64,000 bases of DNA, taken from contig NZ_CP006745.1 in assembly GCF_000510265.1 (NCBI RefSeq), forward strand, positions 305,444-369,443, given 5' to 3'. Positions 18,412 through 30,394 of the stretch are shown here, in pieces. The stretch comes from Candidatus Endolissoclinum faulkneri L5 (GTDB lineage Bacteria > Pseudomonadota > Alphaproteobacteria > Thalassobaculales > Thalassobaculaceae). Each line of letters starts with the position of its first letter. Positions within the stretch are counted from its first letter, which is position 1. Made by a program: the position numbers and the translations under genes. Under the pieces are notes generated by a model. That model was given only the letters and a program-made list of their open reading frames with translations. It ran no database searches and was not told where the DNA came from.

Positions 18412-18954
18412 ATGGCAAAACAGTCAATAATCTGGGCACCAGATCCTATTCTAAAGGTTAATTGCACTCCTGTTGCATCTGTGGACAAGAAGATTATTAG
18501 TCTGATGGAAGACATGCTTGAAACCATGTATGCTGCACCGGGCATCGGTCTTGCTGCCCCGCAGGTTGGTGTAACCAAGCGTGTTATTGTCCTAGATATT
18601 TCTAAAAAAGATGATCAACAAGCTCCGCTGTGCTTAGCAAATCCCGAGATAATTTGGAGATCATGCGAGAATATTGTCTATGAGGAAGGCTGCTTATCGT
18701 TGCCTGACTTTTATACGGATGTAGAGCGTTCGGCTGCTATAAGGGTGAGTTATACTGATCGTAATGGTAATAAGCGACAAATTAATGCCGAAGGACTACT
18801 AGCAATTTGCTTGCAGCATGAGATTGACCATATTAATGGCATACTTTTAGTTGACAATGTTTCCACCTTAAAAAGAAATATCTTTCTTAAAAAGATGATT
18901 AAAGTAAAAAAAATCGCGCGCGAAAATAGACAATCCAACATAGCTACTGCTTGA
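18412..18954 (+). CDS. def: Peptide deformylase
   Basis: Def removes the formyl group from the initiator methionine of new proteins. The 180-residue enzyme shows all three metal-site motifs: GIGLAAPQVG, EEGCLSLPDF with the metal-binding cysteine, and QHEIDHINGIL with the HEIDH helix. I start at ATG 18412 (MAKQSIIWAPDP), because an upstream TTG at 18376 adds 12 residues absent from the family. The fmt gene follows within a few bases, pairing the formylating and deformylating enzymes in one operon. Confidence 0.96.
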   Translation: MAKQSIIWAPDPILKVNCTPVASVDKKIISLMEDMLETMYAAPGIGLAAPQVGVTKRVIVLDISKKDDQQAPLCLANPEIIWRSCENIVYEEGCLSLPDFYTDVERSAAIRVSYTDRNGNKRQINAEGLLAICLQHEIDHINGILLVDNVSTLKRNIFLKKMIKVKKIARENRQSNIATA

Positions 18955-18968
18955 TTGTGATGATATCA

Positions 18969-19907
18969 ATGAATTATCCCCCATTAACAATAGCCATGAT
19001 GGGGAGTTCAGATTTTTCAGTTCGGATTCTTCGTTCCTTGGTTGATGTTGGTCATGATATCGTTTGCGTTTATGTACCGTCCTCTCGCTCTAGGGGTGGT
19101 TGCATAAAAAAAAAATTAACTTCGATTGAAGATGCTGCGATTAAGCTAGGGATATCTGTGCGTACACCATGTAGTTTGCGCGATCCGCTTGAACAGGAGA
19201 TTTTTTTTTCTCTTGGCCTTGATCTTCTTGTGGTTGCAGCTTACGGATTGATATTGCCGAAGGAAATCTTGAGTGCGCCAAGGCTCGGTAGTATTAACGT
19301 TCATGCTTCTTTGTTGCCTAGGTGGCGTGGGGCTGCTCCTATTCAGCGTGCAATCTTGGCTGGTGATACGAAAACTGGCGTTACTATTATGCAGATGAAT
19401 TTAGGGCTGGATACTGGTAATGTGCTTATTAGTGGTACGGTGCCTATCACGAGGCAGAGTACCTTTCAGAGCTTGGAAACTGAATTAAGCCTCCTTGGTG
19501 GGGAACTTATCGTTTTAGCAGTTGAAGCTTTAGCACACGGCGAGCTGATTAGTATACCCCAGCTAGAAAAAGGGGTAACGTACGCCAAAAAGTTAAATCG
19601 TGAAGATGCCCGACTTAATTTCCACTTGTCAGCTATAGTGCTTGAGCGATTAGTTCGTGCTTTTAATCCTTGGCCAGGAGCTTTTTTTAGATATAATGGT
19701 GTGTCTATTAAGGTGTTTGAGGCAAATACGCTTAATGTTGGACGAATTACTAATTTTCCTGGTACTGTCCTAGATTCAGAACTGAAGATCTCTTGCGGTG
19801 ATGGAATATTTTTGCCGAGCGTTGTGCAGAGACCAGGAAAGAAAATAGTAAACGTAGAAGCTTTTTTGCGTGGTTTTCCGATTAAGCCTGGAAGTATATT
19901 GGATTAG
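18969..19907 (+). CDS. fmt: Methionyl-tRNA formyltransferase
   Basis: Fmt formylates the initiator Met-tRNA with 10-formyl-tetrahydrofolate. The N-terminal formyltransferase domain contains TIAMMGSSDFSVRILRSL, the signature HASLLPRWRGAAPIQRAI and TGVTIMQMNLGLDTG. A C-terminal OB-like domain follows. I choose ATG 18969 (312 residues), which fits the family N-terminus, although ATG 18960 is also possible. Two homopolymer runs lie in the coding sequence, A10 at 19106-19115 and T9 at 19201-19209. The frame is intact through both. It is in the def-fmt-truA operon, and its substrate comes from the folate pathway that includes folD-fchA. Confidence 0.95.
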   Translation: MNYPPLTIAMMGSSDFSVRILRSLVDVGHDIVCVYVPSSRSRGGCIKKKLTSIEDAAIKLGISVRTPCSLRDPLEQEIFFSLGLDLLVVAAYGLILPKEILSAPRLGSINVHASLLPRWRGAAPIQRAILAGDTKTGVTIMQMNLGLDTGNVLISGTVPITRQSTFQSLETELSLLGGELIVLAVEALAHGELISIPQLEKGVTYAKKLNREDARLNFHLSAIVLERLVRAFNPWPGAFFRYNGVSIKVFEANTLNVGRITNFPGTVLDSELKISCGDGIFLPSVVQRPGKKIVNVEAFLRGFPIKPGSILD

Positions 19908-25390: not shown

Positions 25391-26752
25391 CTAGTAGGCA
25401 AGAATCTTACGAATTGTTTCAACCAACTTAGCATTATTTACTAAAATCTGACTACGTGTTGTCATGTCTTTTACCTGGTAAATTCCACTGATGAATTCTT
25501 TTTCACCAGCAATTATAGCTAATCTAAATCCCTTACGATCGGCATATTTAAATTGCTGACTGACCTTGGCATGCTCTGTTGCAATTTCGGTTGCAATTCC
25601 TGCTTGCCGGAGTGTTCTGGCAATACTTAAATAGCGCCCTAAATGGCTAGGATTAAATACAATAATTAAGACTGGGGCAATGTTAGGTTTCTCTTGCTGA
25701 AGTAATCCTTGATCCATCAAATGAATAATCAGACGGGTTAATCCAATAGACATGCCAACGCCAGGCAACTTACGATTACTATATAGGTTAGCTAGATTAT
25801 CATACCGTCCCCCAGAGCATATGCTGCCAATTGTAGGGTGATTGGTTAAAGTTGTCTCATATACTGTGCCAGTATAGTAGCTAAGACCTCGGGCGACAGA
25901 AAGGTCAAGAATAAAACTATTAGGTGTTAAGCCAAGACTATAAACTATCTTAGAAACTGTAGTGAGTTCCTTAATACCAATCATATAAGTTTCATTCGTT
26001 TTATGGCTTTGCGCTACTAAAGTAAGCAATTTGTCGATTACCTCATCTGCAGGACCTCGCAAGGATGTATATGCTATGATTAAATCTACCTGTTTATCTT
26101 TCAACTTATACTTTTGGAAAAACTGTTTGCGTATTTCATCTTGTCCTACTTTTTCTATTTTATCAATCAGTCGCAAAGCGTTAGCGATTGAGCTAGCCGG
26201 AATACCCGTGTTTAACAATAAACCTCCTAGTAATTTACGGTTGCTCATGCGAATTTGGAATGGCCCGATATTCATATCTTTAAATATACTATCAATAATT
26301 ATCGGTAGTTCAGCATCATTTATCAAATTTAGTGTCTGATCGCCAATAATGTCGATGTCACATTGAATAAATTCGCGGTAACGACCGGACTGCGCTCTTT
26401 CACCACGCCATACCGGCTGTATTTGATAGCGTCGAAATGGAAAAATTAACTTACTTGCATGCTGTGCCACGAAACGTGCCATAGGAATTGTTAAATCAAA
26501 GCGGAGCGCAAAATCAGTTTCATTGTTGCTAGCAGCCAGCCTATGTACTCCGTATATTTGCTTTTCGATATTGCTATTGTTTACTTCTTCTTTTGCCGCA
26601 ATCACCTCACGCAGCTCGAAGGCTGAAGTCCTTAATGGTAGTGCTCCTGTAAGCTCAAAATGTTTTCGCACAATATCCCGGTAGTGATTAAAGGTGATCT
26701 GCTCAGCAGGTAGTAATTCTCGCATACCGCTGATAGAACGAGGGCGAATCAT
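25391..26752 (-). CDS. hisS: Histidyl-tRNA synthetase
   Basis: This class II synthetase charges tRNA-His. The 453-residue protein has motif 2 in FRRYQIQPVWRGERAQSGRYREF, the two histidine-specific signatures ARGLSYYTGTVYE and CSGGRYDNL, motif 3 around GVGMSIGLTRLI, and a C-terminal anticodon-binding domain from about residue 350. It is complete. The gene is alone on the minus strand, convergent with dapF. No strong ribosome-binding site is visible. Confidence 0.96.
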   Translation of the reverse strand: MIRPRSISGMRELLPAEQITFNHYRDIVRKHFELTGALPLRTSAFELREVIAAKEEVNNSNIEKQIYGVHRLAASNNETDFALRFDLTIPMARFVAQHASKLIFPFRRYQIQPVWRGERAQSGRYREFIQCDIDIIGDQTLNLINDAELPIIIDSIFKDMNIGPFQIRMSNRKLLGGLLLNTGIPASSIANALRLIDKIEKVGQDEIRKQFFQKYKLKDKQVDLIIAYTSLRGPADEVIDKLLTLVAQSHKTNETYMIGIKELTTVSKIVYSLGLTPNSFILDLSVARGLSYYTGTVYETTLTNHPTIGSICSGGRYDNLANLYSNRKLPGVGMSIGLTRLIIHLMDQGLLQQEKPNIAPVLIIVFNPSHLGRYLSIARTLRQAGIATEIATEHAKVSQQFKYADRKGFRLAIIAGEKEFISGIYQVKDMTTRSQILVNNAKLVETIRKILAY

Positions 26753-28946: not shown

Positions 28947-29552
28947 TTATTGCTTAATAAGATGCAACAAGTCAGATGCCTCTATCATTAATTTATTTTT
29001 TTCTTTAGAGTAGCTATTCCTTTTAGCTTCTGAGGTAATTAAACTAATATTAGCGTCAACATTAAGCAATATAGATTGGCAAGATGTATTTATCATATTA
29101 GCTCCTGTATAGACATCGCTGAGAATTGTTTTACGACAGATTGTAATAGCTTCGTGAGCAATGTGTAAGCCAGCTACACAATGACTGGCAGCAGATATTG
29201 GTACGTCGGTAGCTTTTATTGCTGCTTCATTTGTAGCGACTTGGCGAATTTTGTTTTCTGTTTCGTTCTTATTTGGTTTATTTTTGGTTTTCATGAGACT
29301 TGAAAAGCATTCAATATCCTCTATTAGACTAACTTTTAATGCATCTATCACAAATTGGCTACGTTTAATTAAATTAATTAATTTATCTTTATTATTTGCT
29401 TTCTTAATAGAAATCTTAAGTGCCATTATTACTAGCGCCATACCCGTTGCAGCATTATAGACGCCCACCGAGCCTCCACCTGGAACCGGCTCATCACTAG
29501 AAATTGATTCAAGGAAATCATTGATTGATTGTTCAAAAAACATGTTGTTCAT
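28947..29552 (-). CDS. fchA: Methenyltetrahydrofolate cyclohydrolase, FTCD-C/FchA family
   Basis: The protein belongs to the formiminotransferase-cyclodeaminase C-terminal family, whose free-standing members hydrolyse methenyl-THF to 10-formyl-THF. The 201-residue product shows SINDFLES, the folate-loop motif EPVPGGGSVG at about 20-29, and ATDVPISAASHCVAG in the second half. I start at ATG 29552, which overlaps the folD stop as TGATG. A start nine codons earlier would intrude further into folD. Coupling to folD, together with a changed FolD residue, suggests that this protein performs the cyclohydrolase step. It is followed by a very long terminator-like hairpin. Confidence 0.88.
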   Translation of the reverse strand: MNNMFFEQSINDFLESISSDEPVPGGGSVGVYNAATGMALVIMALKISIKKANNKDKLINLIKRSQFVIDALKVSLIEDIECFSSLMKTKNKPNKNETENKIRQVATNEAAIKATDVPISAASHCVAGLHIAHEAITICRKTILSDVYTGANMINTSCQSILLNVDANISLITSEAKRNSYSKEKNKLMIEASDLLHLIKQ

Positions 29553-30394
29553 CAAAAGTATCCTTGCATATTCATGCACTTCAAAAGGTTGGAAAAGATA
29601 ATTACTGAGGTTAATGAACCAACACCACCAGGCACGCTGCTGTAAGCCATTACTTTATTAGCTGCTTCAACATCAAAATCGCCAACCAATTTATCATTTT
29701 TATAAGCAATTCCTGCATCAATAATTACATGTTTAGCCGTTACGTTATTAGCATTCAGTAGTCCTGGCTGCCCGGTTGCCGTAAAGATAAATCGAGCTGG
29801 TGTGAGAATAGTAGCAAGATCCTTACTATGACTATGCACAATGGTTACAGTAGCATTTCGATTGATTAACATAGTAGCTAATGGTTTCCCCACAGTTGGA
29901 CCACGCCCTATTACAACTACTTGTTTTCCAGAAAGCCAATCGATAGACTCAGCAAGTTTAATACAAGCCTGTGGTGCAGCTGGACATATTGCTTTATTTT
30001 CTTGTCCTTGTTGAATAAGTGCTTGATTTAAAGGATTTAGTCCATCTATATCTTTCTTTTGGTCAAGAATAGATAGCAATCGGTTATGATCTAGATCAGC
30101 ACGTACCGGAAGATCAATTATAATGCCGTGAATTGAGTTATCGTTATTTGATACACGAATTAGTGCTTCACAAGCTTCATGTTTTTTGTTAGCAGCAAGC
30201 TCGATTATCTTCATAGTAATGCCAAGATTATCTGCTTGCTTTATTTTGGAAAGGACATAAGGCTTAATTGCTGTATTATTGCTAGCAATAATTGTTTGGA
30301 TTGTTGGATTTATACCTTTAATCCTATAAGCATTAACCTTTGCTTTTACTTCAACTTTTATTGAATCAATTATTTTATTAGCCTTGATTTTCAT
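29552..30394 (-). CDS. folD: FolD-family methylenetetrahydrofolate dehydrogenase
   Basis: FolD interconverts methylene-, methenyl- and 10-formyl-THF. This 280-residue protein keeps Tyr46 and Lys50 of the YxxxK site (YVLSK), DIDGLNP at 115-121, the nucleotide loop GRGPTVGKP and the C-terminal PGGVGSLT. It is divergent: the usual GILVQLPLP reads GIIIDLPVR, with Asp94 at the glutamine position essential for cyclohydrolase activity in characterised enzymes, and the PCTP motif reads CPAAP. Dehydrogenase activity is expected to remain, and the adjacent FchA can supply the hydrolysis. The stop overlaps the fchA start. The 10-formyl-THF produced would feed fmt and purine synthesis. Confidence 0.92.
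   Translation of the reverse strand: MKIKANKIIDSIKVEVKAKVNAYRIKGINPTIQTIIASNNTAIKPYVLSKIKQADNLGITMKIIELAANKKHEACEALIRVSNNDNSIHGIIIDLPVRADLDHNRLLSILDQKKDIDGLNPLNQALIQQGQENKAICPAAPQACIKLAESIDWLSGKQVVVIGRGPTVGKPLATMLINRNATVTIVHSHSKDLATILTPARFIFTATGQPGLLNANNVTAKHVIIDAGIAYKNDKLVGDFDVEAANKVMAYSSVPGGVGSLTSVIIFSNLLKCMNMQGYF

Follow-up and report, generated by a model that had tools for sequence, protein, structure and literature searches.

The question raised by the folD locus of Candidatus Endolissoclinum faulkneri L5 is whether the two reactions of the usually bifunctional FolD enzyme, oxidation of methylene-THF to methenyl-THF and hydrolysis of the latter to 10-formyl-THF, are divided here between two proteins. 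The window (the whole stretch of 64,000 nucleotides that was analysed) belongs to a single-contig genome of 1,518,636 bases with a completeness of 99.92%. The features of the locus are as follows, all on the minus strand.

28947..29552, minus strand: fchA-like gene, PF04961, 201 aa from ATG (a GTG start would reach 29579)
29550..29554, minus strand: TGATG overlap of the folD stop and the fchA start, from the sequence of the junction
29552..30394, minus strand: folD, encoding a class A (acidic) FolD of 280 aa, PF00763 and PF02882
29972..29983, minus strand: PAAP replacing PCTP, residues 138-141 (PATP in the four large genus genomes)
30113..30115, minus strand: Asp94 codon, aligning with human Gln100
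30245..30247, minus strand: Lys50 codon, aligning with human Lys56 (residue kept)

The window FolD scored 78.0 bits against PF00763 (cut-off 32.8) and 134.5 bits against PF02882 (cut-off 27). Asp94 lies within IIIDLPV and aligned to the Gln of VQLPLP in PDB chain 3p2o, confirming the substitution named in the preliminary description. Lys50 (YVLSK, with the YxxxK pattern) and Asp117 (KDIDG) are retained and correspond to human Lys56 and Asp125. At these two positions the protein carries the marks of a bifunctional FolD; at the Gln100 position it does not. The preliminary description had also called for a check that no other folD exists. In a genome-wide profile search of the symbiont PF02882 matched once, and no second canonical folD was found.

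Variants of the human enzyme at Gln100 reportedly lack cyclohydrolase activity and keep dehydrogenase activity (Sundararajan and MacKenzie 2002). The preliminary description likewise had it that substitution of this Gln abolishes the one activity and spares the other. Hydride abstraction, the dehydrogenase step, is however also supported by Lys56 and Gln100 (PMC3368264), so that loss of the Gln need not affect the cyclohydrolase alone. The Gln helps to position the catalytic lysine, which is the general acid-base of the cyclohydrolase step (PMC3338484). Because an acid has replaced this Lys-positioning Gln, we propose that the FolD no longer hydrolyses methenyl-THF. Residues and gene context agree with a split of the usual bifunctional enzyme, in which FolD would act as dehydrogenase only and FchA as cyclohydrolase, and we regard this as quite probable. 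The preliminary description had put forward this same division, and at the level of sequence it is well supported.

The overlap of folD and the next gene as TGATG was borne out by the junction sequence, the ATG of fchA sharing its A with the folD stop codon. The coordinates 28947-29579 are a mechanical call from the GTG; the ATG overlapping the folD stop is the more likely start. The description of this gene as FchA-type stood at the level of the family, with 130.5 bits against PF04961 (FTCD_C family, cut-off 24.5), but not at that of the NCBIfam FchA equivalog NF045657, against which it reached 86.6 bits (cut-off 275). The same model gave 88.1 bits for a free-living relative, 209 for a class A Bacillota partner and 339.7 for the methylotroph locus L009. 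The protein thus lies outside the equivalog and, its score being so far under the cut-off, is named FchA-like in role by context only. Fifteen residues are shared by 95% or more of 55 other FchA rows, some of them duplicates, and the window protein has all 15; since a hut-cluster protein carries 14 of the same 15, these residues cannot separate a cyclohydrolase from a cyclodeaminase. A formimino-THF cyclodeaminase, with methenyl-THF hydrolysed by FolD or unaided, would be in keeping with the score below the equivalog cut-off and with similar FTCD_C proteins in hut clusters, for example in Peptoclostridium acidaminophilum. Nevertheless, we consider this very unlikely, since the gene overlaps folD and no match to FTCD_N (the formiminotransferase domain, PF07837) was found in the symbiont genome by a search in which the Thermotoga maritima control was positive.

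Given the split, folD and fchA would form a two-gene operon that is probably co-transcribed. FolD would oxidise methylene-THF to methenyl-THF without hydrolysing it, and FchA would hydrolyse methenyl-THF to 10-formyl-THF, supplying Fmt and PurH, both of which consume 10-formyl-THF. A purH-type gene was matched in the symbiont genome, and the other likely user lies in the window:

18951..19907, plus strand: formyltransferase gene of the Fmt type, likely a user of 10-formyl-THF, PF00551 and PF02911, position

No formate-THF ligase (PF01268) was matched in the symbiont genome.

The pair is shared throughout the genus. PF04961 was present in 6 of 6 genus genomes, 0 of 30 other members of the family and 1 of 25 other members of the class; some of the 30 family genomes are incomplete (59-100%), so the absence of FchA is not firm for each of them. 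In all six genus genomes folD stands directly before fchA with an overlap of 1 or 4 bases. At the Gln position the four genomes of 4.7-5.6 Mb encode Glu, together with PATP, and the two 1.5-Mb genomes encode Asp, together with PAAP. Further PF02882 matches in three genus members (G001, G002, G004) fall below the family cut-off. Eight FchA-free family-mates have a FolD with both Gln and Lys. Another family, f16, includes three genomes that carry the pair, the residue at the Gln position being Glu in one of them and Asp in the other two, which measure 4.3 and 6.3 Mb. When the two 1.5-Mb genomes were compared, dN/dS was 0.14 for folD and 0.38 for fchA, the latter taken from the GTG start and hence including the stretch that overlaps folD. 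Both genes are under purifying selection. Because a non-Gln residue and the neighbouring gene are kept in 6 of 6 genus genomes, and because of these two ratios, the observation exceeds chance.

Ca. Endolissoclinum faulkneri L5 and L2 have genomes of 1.51 and 1.48 Mbp, the coding density of the two reduced genomes is 55.6% (L5) and 57.2%, and the closest characterised species is Thalassobaculum litoreum, as stated in the genome report (PMC3851785). One could read Asp94 and PAAP as erosion of a once ordinary bifunctional FolD while the symbiont genome degenerates, which would suit the low coding density of L5 and the confinement of Asp and PAAP, within the genus, to the two 1.5-Mb genomes. However, Glu, PATP and fchA are already in place in the four large genus genomes, Asp also occurs in the two large f16 genomes, and the folD ratio is low. 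With Glu in four large relatives and Asp or Glu in the three f16 genomes, decay within the symbiont is rejected as the origin of Asp94; there is hardly any likelihood left for it.

Of the four large genus genomes, three (L003, L004, L005) have an amidohydrolase gene next after fchA on the same strand, assigned by Pfam in L004 and by sequence likeness in L003 and L005. In the window, no amidohydrolase-like ORF of at least 120 aa was found after fchA before position 26752.

The preliminary description had further suggested surveying FolDs beside fchA for loss of the Gln, and here the expectation held. We aligned 193 distinct FolDs (rows shorter than 150 residues left out) from 80 genome-scan loci, from genomes of the class, a clostridial class, Bacillota and Pseudomonadota, and from fetched regions. 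The 80 loci were found via patterns including KD[VI]DGL and PA[TA]P, so that this sample leans towards such FolDs. Beside FchA, defined as on the same strand and within 1.5 kb, 50 of 51 distinct FolDs lack the Gln (Glu 19, Asp 4, Phe 19, Leu 3, Met 5, Gln 1), against 13 of 142 that are not adjacent (Gln 129, other 13). The sole Gln case beside FchA, L198, is an odd additional copy, its locus holding a Phe-type FolD as well. The 13 non-adjacent FolDs without Gln come from 12 genomes, each with a PF04961 match elsewhere; this agreement is partly built in, because 12 of the 13 (11 of the 12 genomes) are from genomes chosen for carrying FchA, G327 alone having been found via its FolD. Adjacency gave a Fisher value of 8e-33, which we do not offer as proof because it counts related sequences as if they were independent. 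An independent-pairs test had only 2 usable pairs, on starred branches, and hence is unable to reach significance. As the lineages are few, the link between Gln loss and FchA is an association rather than independent replication.

In all 43 genomes that were searched for FchA without a match, the FolD that was read has Gln. They comprise 18 Bacillota (from the 20 listed of 124), 17 of 21 genomes checked after the locus scan, each represented by only the FolD that brought the genome in, and the 8 family-mates. G012, which has a FolD match below the cut-off only, was excluded from the counts. Among 57 FchA-bearing Bacillota, 42 have a non-Gln FolD and 15 have Gln FolDs only, which indicates that FchA also serves elsewhere, the hut cluster of P. 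acidaminophilum being a named case of another role. The Bacillota FchA loci were the best-scoring among the matches listed. Left out of the 57 were G891, which belongs to Pseudomonadota, and G503, G475, G444 and G632, Bacillota that have FchA matches and no PF02882 match at E 1e-15. Five FchA loci fetched after plasmid searches had no FolD nearby. In the planctomycetote G327, both L016 and L112 have Pro at the Gln position, keep the Lys and are not beside FchA; the PF04961 match of this genome sits on a different contig.

Loss of the Gln takes two forms. Among 192 distinct FolDs (rows shorter than 200 residues left out), the Lys at the human Lys56 position is kept with Gln in 123 of 130, with an acid in 24 of 24 and with Phe, Leu or Met in 0 of 34. 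Class A, to which the window FolD belongs, thus combines an acid at the Gln position with a kept Lys (24/24), and class B combines Phe, Leu or Met with a lost Lys (34/34). The change in the PCTP motif that had been seen in the window FolD, which reads PAAP, proved to be a feature of its class: of the 24 class A FolDs, 20 have PATP, the two from the symbionts have PAAP, and 23 have GRG, and PCTP and GRS prevail in the other FolDs. A single FolD match was obtained in 13 of the 14 class A Bacillota genomes that carry the pair; the remaining one, G445, gave an additional weak match. One of the class A loci, L184, has folD-fchA immediately before the gene for the exonuclease VII large subunit.

That class A invariably has an acid here speaks for a role of this residue. 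In place of the Gln that positions the catalytic Lys, it may disable the Lys, perhaps through an ion pair. A different reading of the kept Lys is that the Asp or Glu FolD retains enough cyclohydrolase activity and that FchA is an accelerator or a backup. The catalytic Lys is indeed kept in all 24 acidic FolDs, the window FolD has both the Lys and the Asp125-type residue, and the FolD of Thermoplasma acidophilum (PDB 3ngl), which like class A has Glu, a kept Lys and PATP, bears a bifunctional name. Yet selection has retained fchA in two genomes reduced to 1.5 Mb, the Gln is present in 43 of 43 FchA-free genomes read, and the human Gln100 variants are said to lose cyclohydrolase activity. A sufficient FolD is therefore improbable in our view, and we favour a FolD that would leave hydrolysis to FchA.

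Some FolDs stand outside these classes. In a subfamily comprising L122 (G050), L253 and L254 (G583), L270 (G591) and L272 (G436), the Lys is replaced by Gln, the Gln position holds Gln or His, and KDVDG mostly reads KDVEG. The Lys-to-Gln FolD adjoins another FolD-like gene in L254, L270 and L272, and FolD-like proteins of L254, L270, L272 and L277 have GDSFDLI or GWSIEIG replacing the GRSNIVG nucleotide-binding motif.

Class A pairs occur in two phyla. Those of Bacillota (for example L161, L182, L184 and L207) have Glu, a kept Lys, PATP, GRG and folD before fchA; all but the Glu, which is Asp in the window, are as in the window's pair or its genus, and common descent of both is likely. When the Gln and Lys columns were masked, a tree of 55 FolDs placed the class A proteins of the two phyla together on one side of a branch (support 100/99, with a bootstrap that had not quite settled) and the FolDs of the family-mates among canonical alphaproteobacterial ones. 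A tree of 111 rows agreed on the class A branch with support 99. In the FchA tree both class A groups were likewise on one side of a branch (support 90), and the alphaproteobacterial proteins joined other proteobacterial FTCD_C proteins. FTCD_C proteins from four Pseudomonadota loci without FolD (L173, L174, L175, L176) also group with the window FchA; their neighbours include genes for a sugar-phosphate mutase, glyceraldehyde-3-phosphate dehydrogenase and PAS-domain proteins.

The likelier course is that a transferred operon replaced the native folD. Alternatively, there was no transfer from Bacillota-like bacteria, the acidic FolD arose from the native alphaproteobacterial one, and the likeness is due to convergence. 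A clade joining the window's group to canonical alphaproteobacterial FolDs was not rejected by AU tests (p 0.498 with 111 rows, 0.326 with 55 rows), and the grouping of the alphaproteobacterial FchA with other proteobacterial FTCD_C proteins also favours this origin. Against it, the masked trees unite the acidic FolDs of both phyla, the FchA proteins of both phyla share one side of a branch, and PATP, GRG and the order of folD and fchA are common to both. Native origin is rather unlikely on balance, but a firm claim of transfer from Bacillota is weakened by the AU results despite the high branch support. The full account of the pair would be that in class A FolD the acid ion-pairs with the catalytic Lys and switches the cyclohydrolase off, and that the module was transferred, replaced the native FolD in the Thalassobaculum lineage and was fixed through shrinkage to 1.5 Mb, although a single gene might have sufficed for both tasks. 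We advance it tentatively, at somewhat under an even chance, because it includes a transfer, on which the AU tests do not decide.

A division of labour between FolD and FchA has counterparts. The FolD of Clostridium perfringens reportedly is a dehydrogenase only and is accompanied by a separate FchA, as proposed here; C. perfringens also has Fhs, for which the symbiont genome has no PF01268 match, and Fhs may not be required in such a split. Class B pairs of Bacillota (for example L100-L105 and L159) resemble the window's in that fchA adjoins folD and the Gln is lost, but differ in having Phe, Leu or Met, in the loss of the Lys and in lying on a separate tree branch. In the MtdA-Fch arrangement of methylotrophs, of which L009 is an example, separate genes for a dehydrogenase and FchA also stand side by side; the dehydrogenase beside fchA in L009, which we take to be MtdA, is however not a full FolD, about 85 residues aligning. 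The yeast 5,10-methylene-THF dehydrogenase (PDB 1edz) is a FolD-family protein with dehydrogenase activity only, but is distant from the window FolD (E 1.5e-13). In the literature, FchA is a separate cyclohydrolase in some microorganisms, with the C. perfringens study of Aluri et al. (2016) cited (PMC7219735), fchA and folD are separate genes in the acetogen A. woodii (PMC10472528), and fchA was scored essential by Tn-seq in C. difficile (PMC12548448). The FolD/FchA split is therefore already known. What appears to be new is the acidic class, the residue rule and the occurrence in an alphaproteobacterial genus and its reduced symbiont; a literature search covering titles and the starts of abstracts, with few subscription papers, found no acidic FolD class and no survey of FolD residues against FchA.

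The best-scoring NCBIfam models for these FolDs are all named bifunctional, those shown scoring under their cut-offs. The positions of Gln100 and Lys56 sort the FolDs read almost cleanly by an adjoining fchA. If enzyme assays agree, this would provide a simple annotation rule for a central enzyme of one-carbon metabolism, applicable to many Bacillota and to this alphaproteobacterial genus, and it would make testable the question why two genes are used where one would do.
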